Source: Candidatus Woesearchaeota archaeon
Lineage (GTDB): Archaea; Nanobdellota; Nanobdellia; Woesearchaeales; GW2011-AR4
NCBI GenBank assembly: GCA_016187465.1
Contig: JACPJQ010000002.1
Span: forward strand, 62,001-126,000
DNA length: 64,000 nucleotides
Reading direction: 5' to 3'
Below the pieces are notes generated by a model. It searched no databases. It had not been told where the DNA came from and saw only the letters and a list, made by a program, of their open reading frames with translations. Positions within the stretch are counted from its first letter, which is position 1, and every line of letters starts with the position of its first letter. The position numbers were made by a program, and so were the translations under genes. This document shows positions 22,517 to 31,545 of this stretch, piece after piece.

Positions 22517-23464
22517 TTGAAAAAATTTTTAAAAAAGCCCTTTTCCTATTGGATTATGACGCAGATATTGGGCATTGTAAAGGAAGGAATGCTTATTCCG
22601 GAAGAGCTATGGGTAAAGTTTGTGAATGGAATGCATAACAGCTTTGACAATCTTGAAACCAACAACCAGAGAGCTAAAAGAGAGCTTGCTGAAGCAGTAG
22701 TTAATGCTGTTAAAAAGAGAATTGTTCCAAAGTTCGGCATCCTGTTTTCTGGCGGTGTGGACAGCTCATTGATCGCCTTTGTATGCAAACAGCTCAAGTG
22801 CAATTTTACATGCTATACTGTTGGAATTGAGGGCTCTGACGATATTGCGTGGGCGCAAAAAGCCGCAAATGAATATGGATTTAATCTTAAATATAAAGTC
22901 TTAAGCTTGGATGAGTTTGAAATTGTTCTGAAGAATGCTGTCAAACTGCTGAATGACGCTGATATTGTCAAAACGAGTGTTGGCTCTGTTTTATATTCAG
23001 CAGGAAAACTGGCTTTGGCTGATGGAAACAATATACTTTTTGGCGGTCTTGGAAGCGAGGAAATATTTGCAGGCTACCAAAGGCATGAAGAAGCTTTGCA
23101 AAAAGATAATTTCGGGGCATTGCATGCAGAATGCTGGAGCGGCCTGAAAAATATGTGGAAAAGGGACTTGATAAGGGACTTTACGATTGCAAAAAATCTT
23201 GGTTTGGATTTGAGAACCCCATTTCTGGATAAGGATGTTGTAAAGGTGGCAATGAACATACATCCAATGTTCAAGCTTGACAAAGACAACAAGAAGATAA
23301 TCCTGAGGGAGGCTGCCGAATTTATCGGCTTGAAGAAAGAGTTTGCATGGCGAAAGAAGCAGGCAGCGCAATACGGCAGCAACTTTGTTAATGGAATTGA
23401 GAAATTAGCTAAAAAGAATGGATTCAAGCTGAAAAAAGACTATCTGCAGAGTATATTGAAGTGA
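22517..23464 (+). CDS. Asparagine synthase C-terminal (amidoligase) domain protein
   Basis: FGILFSGGVDSSLIAFVCKQL, LFGGLGSEEIFAGYQRH, LDLRTPFLDKDVVKVAM; no N-terminal glutaminase domain. Confidence 0.88.
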   Translation: MKKFLKKPFSYWIMTQILGIVKEGMLIPEELWVKFVNGMHNSFDNLETNNQRAKRELAEAVVNAVKKRIVPKFGILFSGGVDSSLIAFVCKQLKCNFTCYTVGIEGSDDIAWAQKAANEYGFNLKYKVLSLDEFEIVLKNAVKLLNDADIVKTSVGSVLYSAGKLALADGNNILFGGLGSEEIFAGYQRHEEALQKDNFGALHAECWSGLKNMWKRDLIRDFTIAKNLGLDLRTPFLDKDVVKVAMNIHPMFKLDKDNKKIILREAAEFIGLKKEFAWRKKQAAQYGSNFVNGIEKLAKKNGFKLKKDYLQSILK

Positions 23465-23587: not shown

Positions 23588-23693
23588 ATAATTAATGCTT
23601 TGGGAAAGAAAAAATACAATTAACTGATGCATCAAATTCACATCTATAATAAAGAAATTAAACAAAGGATTATTGAAATATAAAATTAATGAA

Positions 23694-24119
23694 ATGTTTT
23701 ACAAATTCAGCGCATACGGGCATCCGAACATTCTGGGAACCCATAAAACAACATTGGAATTCACAAAAGACGAGGAATTAACGCTAGAAGGGGATTGTAT
23801 TGTTGGCGTTAAATCTGATTTTGAGCTGGACGAACTGAAAGATTTTATTAAAAAGTCCAACAATAAAAAAATAACAATAACAATAGGAGAGATATCAAAT
23901 AAAAGTCGCAAAAAAATCAAAGAAACAATATGCGCTGAGATTAATCAAAGCTTTAATAATAATAAGGAATTCGTAATCAGAAAAACGGATTTCGTCTCTG
24001 AAAGAACTTTTGCAATAAGCTCAAATAAGGCTGCTATTGACTTAAATAGAGATTTAATTAACTTCTTAAAGGAGAAAAATAATAAAATAAGCGTTATTAT
24101 TGAAAATAAGAAAGAATAA
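23694..24119 (+). CDS. DUF371 family protein
   Basis: YKFSAYGHPNILGTHKTTLEFTKDEELTLEGDCIVGVKSDF. Confidence 0.8.
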   Translation: MFYKFSAYGHPNILGTHKTTLEFTKDEELTLEGDCIVGVKSDFELDELKDFIKKSNNKKITITIGEISNKSRKKIKETICAEINQSFNNNKEFVIRKTDFVSERTFAISSNKAAIDLNRDLINFLKEKNNKISVIIENKKE

Positions 24120-24300
24120 GTCTTAGTATAACAAAAGAAAACTTTTTCTGTATATTTTATATAATATTTTAACTAAAAAAATAGATAAATTTTTAAAGTA
24201 TAAAGATATCATAGGCTTCTAGTTGGGGCGCTAATTAGGTTCTGGGAAGAAAAAGAGGAAAATAAATAGAAGACTGCGAGGTTGGAGAAAAATAATTAAA

Positions 24301-25956
24301 ATGGTTAAAAAGGAGGACATAAACAAGCTTATAGGAATAGCTTCGGGATTCATAACATTAAGTAGAATGTTTGACACACAAAAACCAAGATATATTAAAC
24401 CGCCAATTGAAGAGGCACCAAAACCAAGATATCAAGCTACAATTTCTCCTGAAGGCAGATTTGTTCTTACTATTGATGATTTGTTAATTGATGAGTGGCT
24501 TCACTCCCAACTTAATAAAAATGGCAATTACGCGGAAAGTCTAAAAGACCGCTTGTTTTTTGGGAGTTTTTTGGACTCACCTTATTTCAAAAAGAGCGAA
24601 GACAGATATGGCAAATGGCTGACAGATCCACAGAAAGAAATTCTATCCAGATTTGAGGAAGATGTACAGCAAGATTTTAAATTACTTAAGCAGAGAAGGA
24701 ATAGCGGATTGCCTGCAATCTCTCACGTTTATAGTGATAAAATAGAAGTGCTTAAGATTGCTTTAAGAGCGGGTGTGCCGCCAGATTATATAATTGCAAT
24801 TGGAAGTTTAGGACACGATTTAATAGAAGAGGATGACGAAATCAAAGATTTGGAGGATAAACGGTTAGAAGCCCTTCTTAAAGATAGTCAAGATGACATG
24901 TTGAGATATTCCACACTATTAACTAAGGCTAGAAAGGAAAAATCTACAGAAGTTGAAAGGAGATTAAATGGCTATATCCCAATCGGTGTAAGGGGGGACG
25001 AGCGCGACGACTATAGAACTTCTCATTCTAAAGCTGTAAGAATTATATTGGACACTACAAGATTCACAGAAAGAAATCCTTATGCCTACTCACTTGAGCA
25101 CAGCTTTTCTATAGACGGTAGCGAGGGGCTAGATCAAACTTTTAGGAGGTTCGTTGTAAAAGGTTCTGATTTGATAAGCAATAGTGGAGAAACAGACCCT
25201 ATTCCAGAAGAAGTGATGAAGCAGTTAAGAACGGCTTCAATGGACGAAGGAACAGTGAGAGGTAATTTTGATGGCCATGAAATTTCTTATGTTATTCGCG
25301 ATGAGTTTCAAAGAAGATTTGGAAGCCTGAAAGAAAATGGAGAACCAATGAGCTCAGCACTGCGAGTAGCAAACTCTGTAAATGGAGTTCCTGCGCTGCA
25401 ATATGCGAATGAGACATTAAATAATAAGGCTGAAGACGTTTCTTCAGGCATAATAAACGGCACTACACCTCAACTAATGAGGCTTGCCATTTACACAATG
25501 AACGAAGTTGCAAATGCTAAACTAAGCTTGGCTTATTCTGCAATAAAACGGTATGAACAGTATCCAGAGGTTATGGCAGCTAAGCCTCAAATTGATGCTA
25601 AGATTGAAAGACTAAAGAAAACTTCACATTATGACACGATAACCTTTAAGGACGGTATTGTTGGGCACTGGCTTGAGCTGGATGAGGAAGGAAGAGAGAG
25701 AATAGACAAGCTTGATCAAGATCCCAACGAAAGGGTAGAAAGCTACGAAGCTGCAAGGCACTTAGAAGTACTACTCCCAAGATTTACTATGGTATATAAT
25801 AAACCGAACAATCAGTCTCGCCAACTTGTCTCATTGGAAGATCTCAGTCACTATAATCCACATAAACACGAGTTTTTCACTCTTAAGAATTTTGATCTGG
25901 TGAAGAGGTCGTTGGCGAATCATGAACAGAGGGTTAAGGATTATACAGGATTATAG
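24301..25956 (+). CDS. HD-domain protein resembling the RelA/SpoT hydrolase domain
   Basis: SHVYSDKIEVLKIALRAGVPPDYIIAIGSLGHDLIEEDD ... VKGSDLISN; adjacent to a RelA/SpoT synthetase-like gene. Confidence 0.65.
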   Translation: MVKKEDINKLIGIASGFITLSRMFDTQKPRYIKPPIEEAPKPRYQATISPEGRFVLTIDDLLIDEWLHSQLNKNGNYAESLKDRLFFGSFLDSPYFKKSEDRYGKWLTDPQKEILSRFEEDVQQDFKLLKQRRNSGLPAISHVYSDKIEVLKIALRAGVPPDYIIAIGSLGHDLIEEDDEIKDLEDKRLEALLKDSQDDMLRYSTLLTKARKEKSTEVERRLNGYIPIGVRGDERDDYRTSHSKAVRIILDTTRFTERNPYAYSLEHSFSIDGSEGLDQTFRRFVVKGSDLISNSGETDPIPEEVMKQLRTASMDEGTVRGNFDGHEISYVIRDEFQRRFGSLKENGEPMSSALRVANSVNGVPALQYANETLNNKAEDVSSGIINGTTPQLMRLAIYTMNEVANAKLSLAYSAIKRYEQYPEVMAAKPQIDAKIERLKKTSHYDTITFKDGIVGHWLELDEEGRERIDKLDQDPNERVESYEAARHLEVLLPRFTMVYNKPNNQSRQLVSLEDLSHYNPHKHEFFTLKNFDLVKRSLANHEQRVKDYTGL

Positions 25957-26075
25957 AGAAGTCAAGGACTTATAAACGGTAGTTTGCTCTCACTAAATGT
26001 TATGTTAATAATTTATATTTTATAAAATCCAAACATATAAAAAAGCACAGCTATTTCTTTATACTTGGTTTTAAG

Positions 26076-27419
26076 ATGAAAGAATATTTCACGCCAGAAG
26101 ATTATGAAAGGGCTTTTGGTAGTGGCAGCTATCGCAATAAAGAAATTTTCATTGATACTTTTGGCGGGATATTCCGTGGAAATCCTCCCAGAAAACTCGC
26201 TAAAATGCCACAGAATAAGCTAGAGAGACTTATTGCAAAAATTGCCCGTAGCGATAATGTTATGAGGTTACGAAAGACTCTTGCTGAAGAAGTAGTTGGT
26301 GGCGAAAACTATCTTATAAATCTTATAAGCGTCATGCTGGGACAACTTCAGAAGCTTCACATAATGCCTTCTGATAAAGATAAGATCTATCCAAAAATGT
26401 ATCAAGACGTTTGGGCTTATTGCGCGAAAGAAATGGAAGAAAAAAGGAAGTCAAAGCAATTTGATGAGCCAGCTGTTCCAGTTGGTAAGGGGCTTTTTGA
26501 GATGGAATTGCCCTTGGAAAAAATATTTTTTAGACCCGAGAACACATTTTACTCCGATATACCGACACTTTACAAAAATGACGCTTTAGAATGCAGGCAC
26601 GGACCAGAAGATGTTGTTTTGAGAAGATCAGGAAAGCTGTATGTATGGAGCGACCGTGCAACTGATAAGGAGCTGGAAAATAGGGTGAAGACGGTGATCG
26701 GAAATACTGCCAATAGAGTTTATAGGAACATTCCAAGTTATGAGAAGAGGCTGATTCAGGCCGAGCAAGATATTGTTGATGAATTGCATGAAACATTTGA
26801 ATCGTTGAAAACAGGCAGTTACATAAATTATCGTAAAGTTTACAAAGTCTTTAATTGGATAGCCAGGGAAAACTTTGACATAAGCCATCTAATAGAAGGC
26901 TCAGAATTAAGAAAAGTTTTGAGAGTAGAAATTGACAGGAAAAGTCCTAATGGTGAGAGGATTATACCGCTCCCGTACACAGCCATTCGAACTAGGGTAA
27001 AAGAATCTTATAGTGAATTTCTGAAAGTTTTAATGACCTTATATGACATAAGAAATGAGGAGGACGAAAATAAGCCAAGAACATATCAAGATAGGAATGG
27101 ATTGAGAGTTGTCTTGCCAACTGTTCAGAATGTAATGGATTTGGTATGTTCGTTTAAACAGATTCCGACAATCGAAGTAAAAGACGAAAAAAACAGACTT
27201 GGTAATCCAAAAAAAAGCGGCTACAGATCATACGACCTAAAATTTAAGATGGGGGACACCCATTACGAATCTCAATTTAGAACTCACAATATGGATAGAA
27301 ACGCAGAAACTGACATAAAACAAGCGCATGAGGGTAATTACCTAAAGGAAAAAATAGAAGCGCTAAGGGTTGTTCCTGACCGAGTTAAATTAGTTATTGC
27401 GACTATTTATGGAATTTAG
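26076..27419 (+). CDS. RelA/SpoT synthetase-domain-like protein
   Basis: YQDRNGLRVVLPTVQNVMDLV...NPKKSGYRSYDLKFKMGDTHYESQFRTHNMDRNAET parallels DxxGxR ... PKxNGYRSxH ... EIQIRTxxMxxxAE. Confidence 0.7.
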   Translation: MKEYFTPEDYERAFGSGSYRNKEIFIDTFGGIFRGNPPRKLAKMPQNKLERLIAKIARSDNVMRLRKTLAEEVVGGENYLINLISVMLGQLQKLHIMPSDKDKIYPKMYQDVWAYCAKEMEEKRKSKQFDEPAVPVGKGLFEMELPLEKIFFRPENTFYSDIPTLYKNDALECRHGPEDVVLRRSGKLYVWSDRATDKELENRVKTVIGNTANRVYRNIPSYEKRLIQAEQDIVDELHETFESLKTGSYINYRKVYKVFNWIARENFDISHLIEGSELRKVLRVEIDRKSPNGERIIPLPYTAIRTRVKESYSEFLKVLMTLYDIRNEEDENKPRTYQDRNGLRVVLPTVQNVMDLVCSFKQIPTIEVKDEKNRLGNPKKSGYRSYDLKFKMGDTHYESQFRTHNMDRNAETDIKQAHEGNYLKEKIEALRVVPDRVKLVIATIYGI

Positions 27420-27458
27420 TCAAGCTGTAACAATAAAATTTTTAAATACAGAAAAGGA

Positions 27459-28037
27459 TTGTATAGCATGGAATCAAAGGTTGAGCCATTTTATTATAAA
27501 CCTGCATTAGAAGTTAGGGCATTCGCTGTTAAAGAAAAATTTTACAGACTTCTTGAAGAAGGTTTGGTAGATGAAAGCAACCTAAGGGGCAGAGTATTGG
27601 ATATTGGAGTAGGTTATGGCGGAAGTTATACAGTATTACGTCAGTTTAGTGATGATGTTACTGGAATAGAACCGCAGGGAGAATTTGCTGAAGGTTTAAT
27701 CTGCAATGGAATTGTTCCAGCAGACAAGCTGTCTAGGAAAAGCCCATTGGGCTATTTAGAGTCTCAGCACGATGGTACGTTTGACTTTATATCTGGTCTT
27801 TTGCTTTCTAAAGAGCATTATATGCAATTACAAAAATTGTATAAAGCATCTTTGAGTAAGCTGAAAGTTGGAGGACAGCTGTTGTTTACTTTTGATAGAA
27901 GCGTCATGCCCAAAAATTATGTTATTTCACTTACAGAAATTTTAAATGAAGGAGACGACAAGGTTTTGCCATCATTATTAGAATTGAAAGGTTTTGGTCA
28001 AGATGATATTGCTTTGATGGCAACTAAATCACATTAA
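27459..28037 (+). CDS. Class I SAM-dependent methyltransferase-like protein
   Basis: GRVLDIGVGYGGSYTVLRQFSDDVTGIEPQGEFAEG. Confidence 0.75.
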   Translation: MYSMESKVEPFYYKPALEVRAFAVKEKFYRLLEEGLVDESNLRGRVLDIGVGYGGSYTVLRQFSDDVTGIEPQGEFAEGLICNGIVPADKLSRKSPLGYLESQHDGTFDFISGLLLSKEHYMQLQKLYKASLSKLKVGGQLLFTFDRSVMPKNYVISLTEILNEGDDKVLPSLLELKGFGQDDIALMATKSH

Positions 28038-28479
28038 CCCTTCTCGTCTTCCCAACGTAATTTAAAATCTTCCCGTTGGAGTATTTCCCGGCTCCGAGAA
28101 AATCATTTTTATGTTTTATTATGACAAATCCGCTGCAGTCTTTGCATTCCTTTTCAATATCTTCCCCTTTGAACCATTTCTTTGTCTCTTCTTCATTTAA
28201 TTCGACAACGTTTTTAGCCGCTTTTGGGCCTATTATCTGGCTGCCTTCTATGCTCAGCCTTATTCCTTTCGCATCAAGCTCGCAGAAATACATGCCTGCA
28301 GAGTTCAGCCTCAGCTTTGAAGTGTCTATTCTTGCAATATCCTTGGTGACGACAAAAATCCTGTCTTTCGGATTTTTCAAAAATCCATAATCTAACTTCA
28401 GCTTGGCTCCCCATTGCTTCGCTATCAATTTAAGGATTTCCTTGATTTCCTTGCTGTTAAGAATTTTTAATTCCGGCAT
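28024..28479 (-). CDS. PUA-domain RNA-binding protein (NIP7/archaeal-type)
   Basis: GMYFCELDAKGIRLSIEGSQIIGPKAAKNVVELNEEETKKWFKGEDIE...GFVIIKHKNDFLGAGKYSNGKILNYVGKTRR. Confidence 0.8.
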   Translation of the reverse strand: MPELKILNSKEIKEILKLIAKQWGAKLKLDYGFLKNPKDRIFVVTKDIARIDTSKLRLNSAGMYFCELDAKGIRLSIEGSQIIGPKAAKNVVELNEEETKKWFKGEDIEKECKDCSGFVIIKHKNDFLGAGKYSNGKILNYVGKTRRVNVI

Positions 28480-28628: not shown

Positions 28629-30389
28629 TCAAATCCCCCACATTGGATTCTGCTTTCTCATTATCTCAGCTATCTCTTTCAAAATGGTTATTTCGTCATG
28701 AGTCAGATTTTTTTTAAATTCTTTGAATTTTCTGAACTGCTCTTCAGGTATTGCAGAATACAATACATCTTCCTCATGAATCTGCCTTCCTATTGTTACA
28801 TTGGGAAATGAAACTGCAATTCTCTTGCCCTTTCCGGCTTTTTCTATGCTTTCCTGCTCCTCCTGCATGCTTTTTGCCTCTGTTATTGCTATTCCGTCTT
28901 CTTTCATCAGCGGCACTCCGACCTTCAGTGTTCCTGCCAGTACCTCCACTCCGGCAACAGCAGGATTGTTTTGCCTGAAAATGTAGCCTTTAAGCAGCTT
29001 GATTTTGCACGGGCTGGACAGGAATTCCATCTCTTTTCCTTCAAGCCTTTTTCTTTCATCCTGCTGCCATTTCTCAAAATCTTCAATGAGTTTGTAGATG
29101 ATATTGTTAGCCAAAACCTTCACATTCCTGGGAGCCACTTCCTGCATTAATTCAACATTGAAGCCGAGCACTACGCTTAGCAGAGGGTTATTTTCACGGT
29201 TTATCTCAGCATCTGAAATGTCTTTTTTTGATATGTTGCCTATGCTTGCGTTCTTTATATCTATGTTTTTTTCCTTGAGTATTTTTATCAGGGCTTCCAA
29301 GCTGCCCAGAGAATCTGCTTTTATGACAATGCCCTGCTTGTCAGTCTCCATTATGACTTCCCCAATCTCATTTTTGAGCTCTTCCTTTACTTTTTCAATA
29401 TCATTAGGCTCGCAGCTTCTTAACGGCATGCCAGCCACTGCTTTGTCAAGCTCAGGAGCAGAAATCTTGACGCCAGTTGCCGCTGTCACCTCCTTAACAG
29501 ATGCAAACTTGGCTTTCTTGTCGCGCATCTCTGCCAAAGGCTTTGGCTCGAACAATGCCTTGACTTTGGTTACTATAGGCTCTGCCACGGAGCCAATAAC
29601 CATTATGTCATTTTGCTTCAAAGAGCCGTCGTAAATTATTACGTCAATTGTTGTGCCAAGACCCTTTTCCTCCTTGACCTCCAAAATGGTGCCTTTTGCA
29701 CTGCCTTTAATATCAATCTTCAGGCTTTCCTCAAGAAATTTCTGCGACAAGCCTGTCATGACCATAAGCAGTTCAGGCAAACCCTCCCCTGTTTTTGCTG
29801 ATGTCGGAATCAAAGCAATCTGCTTCGTATAGTCCTCCACCCTGTCAAACCTTTCTGAATTAAAGCCCAGCTCGCTCAACCTGCCAACAATCTCGTAAAG
29901 CTTTTTCTCAAGGAGCAGCATTGTATTTTCATTCTGTTTTTGTATATTCTCCAGCAGATTACCATGGGGATTTGATTTCCAGCCCTGCAGCAGGTCGATT
30001 TTGTTCAAGGCAACGACAAAAGGTGTTTTATACTGCTTTAAGATGTCTATACATTCAACAGTCTGTGGCTTTATTCCTTCGTTTATGTCCACAACTAAGA
30101 CTGCTATATCTGCAAGGTTGCCGCCCCTTTTTCTGAGGTTTGTGAATGCTGCATGGCCCGGAGTGTCGATTATGACAAACCCGGGTATCTTTATCTCAAG
30201 CTTGTTTTTTTGAAGCAGACTGCCTGAAATTTTTTTAATAGTGTCTATGTTTATTATTGAGCAGCCTATGCTCTGGGTTATTTTGCCAGGCTCGGACTCG
30301 ACAATAGAGGTATTTCTGATGGTATCAAGCAGTTGTGTTTTTCCGGCGTCTACATTCCCCATAACAGTGATGATTAATTGCCTAAGCAT
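28629..30389 (-). CDS. infB: Translation initiation factor aIF5B
   Basis: MLRQLIITVMGNVDAGKTQLLDTIRNT...IPGFVIIDTPGHAAFTNLRKRGGNLADIAVLVVDINEG...NKID. Confidence 0.93.
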   Translation of the reverse strand: MLRQLIITVMGNVDAGKTQLLDTIRNTSIVESEPGKITQSIGCSIINIDTIKKISGSLLQKNKLEIKIPGFVIIDTPGHAAFTNLRKRGGNLADIAVLVVDINEGIKPQTVECIDILKQYKTPFVVALNKIDLLQGWKSNPHGNLLENIQKQNENTMLLLEKKLYEIVGRLSELGFNSERFDRVEDYTKQIALIPTSAKTGEGLPELLMVMTGLSQKFLEESLKIDIKGSAKGTILEVKEEKGLGTTIDVIIYDGSLKQNDIMVIGSVAEPIVTKVKALFEPKPLAEMRDKKAKFASVKEVTAATGVKISAPELDKAVAGMPLRSCEPNDIEKVKEELKNEIGEVIMETDKQGIVIKADSLGSLEALIKILKEKNIDIKNASIGNISKKDISDAEINRENNPLLSVVLGFNVELMQEVAPRNVKVLANNIIYKLIEDFEKWQQDERKRLEGKEMEFLSSPCKIKLLKGYIFRQNNPAVAGVEVLAGTLKVGVPLMKEDGIAITEAKSMQEEQESIEKAGKGKRIAVSFPNVTIGRQIHEEDVLYSAIPEEQFRKFKEFKKNLTHDEITILKEIAEIMRKQNPMWGI

Positions 30390-30468
30390 AGCATAAAAGT
30401 AAAGCTGCCATATTTTTAAACGTTGTGTAACAAGAAGCTTTTTATTGAAAACGTGGTTTTTTATTGGT

Positions 30469-31545
30469 ATGCACAAGATTATCGAGGAATGCTCAATCAA
30501 ATTAAGAGTGCCCAAAGCGGAAAAAATATCAAAAGCTATGGGAGTTTTCTATAACCCGGCAATGAGCATTAATAGAGACATCAGTGTCTTGTTATTGAAT
30601 TCTATAAACAAAGACATGCTGCAGATTGCAGACCCGCTGGCAGCAACCGGAGTCAGGAGCATCAGATTTTTGAAAGAGATGGACAAAAACAAAATAAAAA
30701 ATATTTGCATTAATGACTATGACAAAGATTCCATAGAACTGATTAAACAAAATTTGGCATTAAATAAGGTACAATACAAGAATAACAAAAAAATATCAAT
30801 AAAAAATGAAGATGCAAACCTGTTCTTGCTAAACTCTGCTGGTTTTGATTATATTGATATCGACCCTTTCGGCACCCCAAATCCTTTTCTTGATGCTGCG
30901 TGCAAAAGAATTTCAAGAGGCGGGGTCTTGGCTGTAACTGCCACAGATACTTCAGCGCTTTGCGGCACTTTTCCAAATGCCTGCATAAGAAAATACTGGG
31001 CCCTGCCTAAAAAAGACGCCATAATGCATGAGACAGGCTTGCGGATTTTAATCAGAAAGGCGCAATTGGTGGCTGCACAGTATGACAAGGCCCTTATTCC
31101 GATATTTTCATATTCCAAAGAGCATTACATGAGGATTTTTCTTAGGGCTGAAAAGGGCAAGAGCAAGGTTGATGATGTTTTAAGCCTGCATCGCTATTTT
31201 AATGACGCGGGTCCGATGTGGACAGGGGCTTTATGGGACAAGAATTTAGTTAATAAAATTTGCATAAATGCCAGAAGAGACAAAATCTTCAATAAAAACA
31301 AAGAATTGATTAAATTTTTAAAGATTATCAAGGACGAATCAGAAATAAATTCCGTTGGATTTTACGATTTGCACGATATTTGCGAAAAAAACAAAATAAA
31401 AAATATGCAAAAAAAAGACGCCATAATTGAGAAAATAAAAAAATCAGGCTATAAGGCAAGCGAAACGCATTTCAGCGGACACGGGTTAAGGAGCGATATT
31501 CCTCTTAAGATACTATACTCACTGACAAAAATAATTATACAATAG
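30469..31545 (+). CDS. trm1: tRNA (guanine26-N2/N2)-dimethyltransferase
   Basis: AKAEKISKAMGVFYNPAMSINRDISVLLL, ADPLAATGVRSIRFLKE, YIDIDPFGTPNPFLDAA. Confidence 0.93.
   Translation: MHKIIEECSIKLRVPKAEKISKAMGVFYNPAMSINRDISVLLLNSINKDMLQIADPLAATGVRSIRFLKEMDKNKIKNICINDYDKDSIELIKQNLALNKVQYKNNKKISIKNEDANLFLLNSAGFDYIDIDPFGTPNPFLDAACKRISRGGVLAVTATDTSALCGTFPNACIRKYWALPKKDAIMHETGLRILIRKAQLVAAQYDKALIPIFSYSKEHYMRIFLRAEKGKSKVDDVLSLHRYFNDAGPMWTGALWDKNLVNKICINARRDKIFNKNKELIKFLKIIKDESEINSVGFYDLHDICEKNKIKNMQKKDAIIEKIKKSGYKASETHFSGHGLRSDIPLKILYSLTKIIIQ

Follow-up and report, generated by a model that had tools for sequence, protein, structure and literature searches.

The 64,000-nt window analyzed here, whose numbering is used for all coordinates below, carries a cassette of three codirectional open reading frames (ORFs) on the + strand: an HD-domain protein of 551 aa (24301-25956, family HD-A), a protein of 447 aa with a RelA/SpoT synthetase domain (26076-27419, hereafter SYN), and a small S-adenosylmethionine (SAM) methyltransferase-like protein (27459-28037). 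At about an even chance, we read this cassette as a conflict module made up of two enzymes of the RelA/SpoT superfamily, resembling toxic small alarmone synthetases (toxSAS) but with an enzymatic HD antidote. The initial annotation of the window had proposed an archaeal setting and a split arrangement, and both hold: the named relatives are Candidatus Woesearchaeota, and the HD-type and synthetase-type proteins are encoded on two separate genes. It had left two options, a stringent-response system or a toxSAS-like toxin with an HD antitoxin. Sequence comparison favors the second over the first because the site is empty in close relatives, the two genes are exchanged combinatorially, an HD gene was transferred recently, and the locus coexists with canonical Rel in other genomes. 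Below, G-numbers denote sampled genomes and L-numbers denote loci in the comparison.

The synthetase and HD proteins

The RelA/SpoT synthetase signature noted earlier in SYN is supported by Pfam RelA_SpoT (PF04607, E=2.3e-10, 41.2 bits, cut-off 27 bits), which spans residues 307-415 of a catalytic domain at about residues 300-447. A profile of SYN and four relatives matches RelA/SpoT homolog (RSH) synthetases of known structure with E-values down to 1.7e-16. Structure prediction also gives a RelP/RelQ-like synthetase fold: the AlphaFold model is good across most of the C-terminal domain and poor at residues 98-194, and in Foldseek the C-terminal domain matches RelP/RelQ with a probability of 1.00, with Rel and CapRel (7ztb, 9erv) also matched. 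The unrelated N-terminal half also enters the global template modeling (TM) scores, which are low for that reason (~0.2 by query). This N-terminal region of ~300 aa makes SYN considerably longer than small alarmone synthetases, as had been remarked. At another locus (L121:3448-5164 in G099), a SYN like that of the window stands alone and is followed by a small helix-turn-helix-like protein.

When aligned with canonical Rel, SYN keeps the ATP-site RxKx3Sx3K (R307, K309, S313, K317), the conserved catalytic Asp and Glu (D339 and E398), and Q400, while R374 stands in place of the nucleotide-stacking G-loop Tyr and D387 in place of the His of GYxSxH. With the ATP-site and catalytic residues kept and the acceptor residues substituted, the active site looks intact on its donor side and altered on its acceptor side. 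Several relatives of SYN retain the G-loop Tyr, the GYxSxH His, or both.

The hydrolase-like motifs ascribed to the HD-type protein are likewise present, as R132-R-x-S-G-x-P-x3-H142, H172-D173-x2-E176, and K287-x2-D290-x3-N294 constitute the Rel HD signature, which in Rel proteins of the same order reads RxSGEPYxxHP ... LLHDxxED ... KLADRLHN. Across the HD-A family alignment, H142, H172-D173, E176, K287, and N294 are invariant and D290 is nearly so, and the spaced R..SG.P...H / HD..E pattern occurred in 0 of 7,780 shuffled proteins. On its own, the HD protein matches nothing in Pfam. A hidden Markov model (HMM) of the HD-A family matches a canonical Rel of 637 aa (G293) in its HD domain at E=6.3e-5, and in hhalign comparisons with Rel, family HD-E reaches 97% and the window family HD-A 65%. 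In other families, the Pfam HD_4 cut-off is passed by first-slot proteins (L115, L163, L168). A PDB profile search with the HD family returned chance-level matches only, and the AlphaFold model, made from a three-sequence alignment, had a predicted local distance difference test (pLDDT) score of 34 and was discarded. On the motif and profile matches, we consider an HD fold probable for the window protein. A membrane anchor for HD-A was considered and rejected, as the N-terminal helix is clearly hydrophobic in G003 and G006 only. One first-slot protein, L103:564-1526 in G033, resembles HD proteins in layout, with HS in place of the HD dyad, and it is perhaps a catalytically dead hydrolase.

There is a slim chance that these are diverged RSH-fold proteins that neither make nor cleave alarmones, and that they are instead RNA-binding or regulatory factors tied to the neighboring translation genes. 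The active sites are eroded in many second-slot families, the neighbors encode PUA and aIF5B proteins, and a tyrosyl/tryptophanyl-tRNA synthetase-like gene occupies one site instead, all of which would suit such a role. Against it, the catalytic Asp is present in nearly all aligned SYN proteins of the cassettes, the HD gene is under purifying selection (see below), and HDxxE or HDxxD is found in 20 of 20 first-slot proteins, usually with (K/R)xx(D/E)xxxN downstream, a count that is partly circular in that some of these proteins were picked by position and motif together.

The chromosomal site in relatives

Within the family, the site lies between an asparagine-synthase-like gene (22517-23464, + strand, Pfam Asn_synthase, 74-84% identical in the genus) and a DUF371 gene (23673-24119, + strand, Pfam DUF371), which forms the left border, and on the other side a PUA-domain protein (28024-28479, - strand, Pfam Methyltranf_PUA), which forms the right border, and an aIF5B-like translation initiation factor (28629-30515, - strand), recognized by eye as an IF2/IF5B-type GTPase and syntenic in relatives. 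Between these borders, relatives have an HD and synthetase pair, a single member of it, unrelated genes, or nothing. At 17 loci, each in a different genome and the window genome included, a second-slot gene follows the HD-type gene. Of these loci, 15 are in the family (G000, G003, G004, G006, G008, G009, G010, G012, G016, G021, G022, G023, G024, G029, G030) and two in other families (G147, G098); single-member loci also exist. In G021, a small gene lies between the two. The RSH nature of the second gene in G012, G023, G029, G016, G098, G008, and G147 is assigned from shared motifs, subfamily links, and position, with no strong domain match. The site is empty, with DUF371 directly beside PUA, in G005, G011, G018, and G019, yet G019 has an HD and SYN pair elsewhere in its genome. 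In G001, the place of the HD/SYN pair between DUF371 and PUA is taken by a 724-aa protein (L097:6795-8969) with a class-I type tyrosyl/tryptophanyl-tRNA synthetase domain (Pfam E=2.7e-53).

Flank proteins within the genus are ~60-85% identical, and most cassette proteins are 26-55% identical or unalignable between relatives. For the HD proteins, identities fall at 84% (one recently exchanged pair), 54-67%, and 26-33%, down to unalignable, and for SYN they run from 48% down to unalignable. Foreign origin judged by base composition or by a tRNA at the site was rejected, since the GC content of 33-40% is similar to that of the surroundings and there is no tRNA in the window.

Exchange of HD and SYN genes

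HD and SYN families combine independently. Among 18 genomes with both genes, a small number, and with families defined as BLAST clusters, 3 of the 18 genome pairs that share a SYN family also share an HD family, versus 3.8 expected at random assortment (permutation mean). The window SYN has relatives in G006, where the HD protein is ~27-30% identical, and in G004, where it is unrelated, and relatives of the window HD protein in G010 and G012 (54-55% identical) go with different SYN families.

The G003 and G006 genomes provide direct sequence evidence for a recent exchange of the HD gene, with a breakpoint at the HD/SYN boundary. Nucleotide identity is ~90% along the HD block and drops to ~50% where SYN begins. 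Synonymous divergence (dS) is 0.35 for the HD gene, versus 1.27 for the asparagine-synthase-like gene and 1.45 for the PUA gene, a contrast that is qualitative because Nei-Gojobori (NG86) dS values above 1 are near saturation; nonsynonymous divergence (dN) of SYN is 0.62. The dN/dS of the HD gene is 0.25, indicating purifying selection. The SYN reading frame in G006 is interrupted, possibly by a metagenome assembly error.

The ~115 nt 5' of the HD gene are conserved among unrelated HD genes (HD-A, B, C, D). In the window, this cassette-specific element (24181-24300, + strand) consists of a promoter with the TATA-like box TTTTTAAA and a purine-rich 5' leader of ~75 nt. A sequence model (nhmmer), from which G023 and G008 were left out, detected one copy per genome in 11 of 39 genomes, always upstream of a cassette HD gene, and this search found no leader in the genomes with empty sites. 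The possibility of a structured RNA was rejected, as there is no consensus structure, folding z-scores range from -1.4 to 0.5, and Rfam gave no credible match, so we treat it as a promoter/leader sequence. This putative leader joins different HD families into what appears to be one regulated system. A putative promoter for the synthetase gene (CATATAAAAAAGCACAGC, 26029-26060, + strand) is common to the G004 cassette with the same synthetase family. A palindrome near ACTACTTnnnAGTAGT precedes the TATA-like boxes of SYN or third genes in intergenic regions of relatives (L016, L018, L020, L023, L024) and is absent from the window.

RelA/SpoT proteins across the order

The initial annotation described (p)ppGpp systems as rarely reported in archaea, but RelA/SpoT is not rare in this group. 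We found PF04607 in 135 of the 288 genomes sampled from the order, in most cases as long Rel, and about 100 ORFs like L031:1378-3291 are full-length Rel-type proteins with HD, SYN, and C-terminal regulatory regions. RelA/SpoT is known in DPANN archaea and has been reported in 41.7% of Woesearchaeota (PMC8407392). Few archaeal RSHs were found in a 2011 survey (PMC3153485), and (p)ppGpp was undetected in two model archaea (PMC8646023). In the literature that we searched, which mostly did not extend to subscription papers, we found no description of this locus or of an archaeal toxSAS pair.

We fetched 40 PUA loci from other families, nine chosen by a prior weak RSH match and the other 31 solely by PUA similarity. 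In both sets, several loci have an RSH-type synthetase or HD protein adjoining PUA (e.g. G231, G139, G259, G197, G075, G199, G142, G117, G076). Canonical Rel is also present in G139, G197, G231, G259, G182, and G273, so the locus does not simply replace Rel.

We consider it unlikely that the cassette is a split Rel, in which a two-chain synthetase and hydrolase would sustain an ordinary stringent response of the (p)ppGpp type in a lineage that lost long Rel. The sample contains no canonical Rel in the window genome or its family, no RelA_SpoT protein besides SYN was found in the window genome, and both halves with their key catalytic residues are present, as a split Rel would need. However, a stringent-response system of this kind accords poorly with empty sites within the same genus, independent assortment of the halves, extreme divergence relative to the flanks, coexistence with canonical Rel in other families, and the substituted acceptor-side residues. 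The long bifunctional layout is not found either, as HD and SYN lie in two genes, and no cassette protein has a Pfam match to a TGS or ACT domain.

The third gene

The small methyltransferase reported downstream of SYN is a weak but recognizable SAM methyltransferase (Methyltransf_23, E=2.6e-4, below the cut-off). Its TTG start as listed may be wrong, and an in-frame ATG at 27468 is likelier. The gene is not a fixed member of a trio, as had been suggested, because only one relative has it (G004, 50% identical) and others have different third genes, such as GNAT and small proteins, or none. Grouping the small third proteins of six loci as a single family was rejected because the alignment is too weak. 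In G010 (L020:4188-4998), two small ORFs between the cassette and PUA resemble, by eye, a PIN-type toxin and a short antitoxin.

Signal-based immunity might be expected to look like this, with a hydrolase and an enzyme that makes nucleotides next to third genes that vary (methyltransferase, GNAT, small proteins). In such a system, SYN would respond to infection by making a nucleotide signal that switches on a further protein, such as the third gene product, and the HD protein would erase the signal. This reading has a very slim chance of being correct, as some loci lack a third gene, those present do not consistently resemble effectors, and we found no sensor domain for such a signal.

Interpretation of the cassette

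Taken together, the dispensability of the cassette, the independent exchange of its genes, the recent transfer of one of them, their fast divergence, and the occurrence of Rel in some of the same genomes argue for a conflict module more than for a housekeeping alarmone switch, and a growth-arrest toxin with an antidote fits the pattern at the site better than an ordinary starvation response does. In the toxin-antidote module that we favor, SYN would move pyrophosphate from ATP to a 3'-OH acceptor, either a purine nucleotide or the CCA end of tRNA, and growth or translation would stop when SYN is triggered. The HD protein would strip the pyrophosphate, keeping SYN harmless or letting the cell recover, and the third, variable gene would be accessory. 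An HD antidote that acts on the product need not bind its partner, which would allow HD and SYN genes to be exchanged independently. We infer the enzymatic activity, the acceptor, the toxicity, the antidote role, and an antiviral or rival-directed purpose of the cassette.

Several observations weigh against this interpretation. The replacement of the G-loop Tyr by Arg and of the GYxSxH His by Asp means that SYN could be weak or inactive, and second-slot families S3, S5, S7, and S8 show little detectable RSH sequence. HD occurs without SYN in G017 and G002, and SYN without HD in G015, G074, and f7 genomes; a strict toxin-antidote pair should exclude lone members unless the lone SYN is inactive. 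Both proteins are far larger than known toxSAS and small alarmone hydrolase (SAH) proteins. Genes of toxin-antitoxin systems usually move about, whereas the cassette keeps to one site across an order, and no relatives of the cassette were found in viral, phage, or plasmid collections.

More tentatively, and with some doubt, the site may be an order-wide archaeal "allelic" conflict locus beside aIF5B, in which SYN and HD genes, drawn from many families, recombine independently behind a common private leader and SYN has diversified to different acceptors, giving an alarmone- or tRNA-based form of immunity or kin discrimination of a type undescribed in bacteria. DPANN archaea are reported to be poor in CRISPR and restriction systems (PMC12988326). 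If the conflict reading is true, a dispensable, shuffled, and fast-evolving cassette at a fixed site would indicate a large pool of conflict systems yet to be characterized. The cassette variants would be natural material for studying how a single catalytic fold shifts from one pyrophosphate acceptor to another, and they bear on how one enzymatic antidote can serve many toxins.

Comparison with known systems

The closest precedent for the cassette is FaRel/ATfaRel of Cellulomonas marina, in which the gene for the synthetase FaRel likewise adjoins a second gene, for an HD hydrolase. This hydrolase, ATfaRel, is an antitoxin that neutralizes toxSAS products promiscuously (PMC11782079). A promiscuous, product-directed antidote of this kind would explain the free assortment of HD and SYN. 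In contrast to the cassette, FaRel/ATfaRel is bacterial, its proteins are compact, and it has a second, specific antitoxin. The cassette proteins, at 447 and 551 aa, have large uncharacterized regions, the HD gene comes first, and the genes occupy a fixed hypervariable site.

RelP/RelQ (YwaC, YjbM) are the best solved-structure relatives of the SYN domain, and SYN shares with them the MDxxA of small alarmone synthetases following the E-x-Q-x-R/K-T motif. They are stand-alone enzymes of ~210-260 aa, whereas SYN has its ~300-aa N-terminal region and changed acceptor residues. The cassette HD and SYN domains carry the same motifs as long Rel/SpoT, a single polypeptide of ~640 aa (e.g. L031) that has both domains together with regulatory regions at its C-terminus, but in the cassette they are split, shuffled, and without those regions. 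The cassette HD protein has the stand-alone hydrolase motifs of MESH1/SAH enzymes, which are ~180-200 aa, although at 551 aa it is much longer and is too diverged for Pfam. Finally, CapRel shares the SYN fold and is an antiphage precedent; it fuses an antitoxin domain to the synthetase and has no HD partner, while in the cassette the partner is a separate protein.
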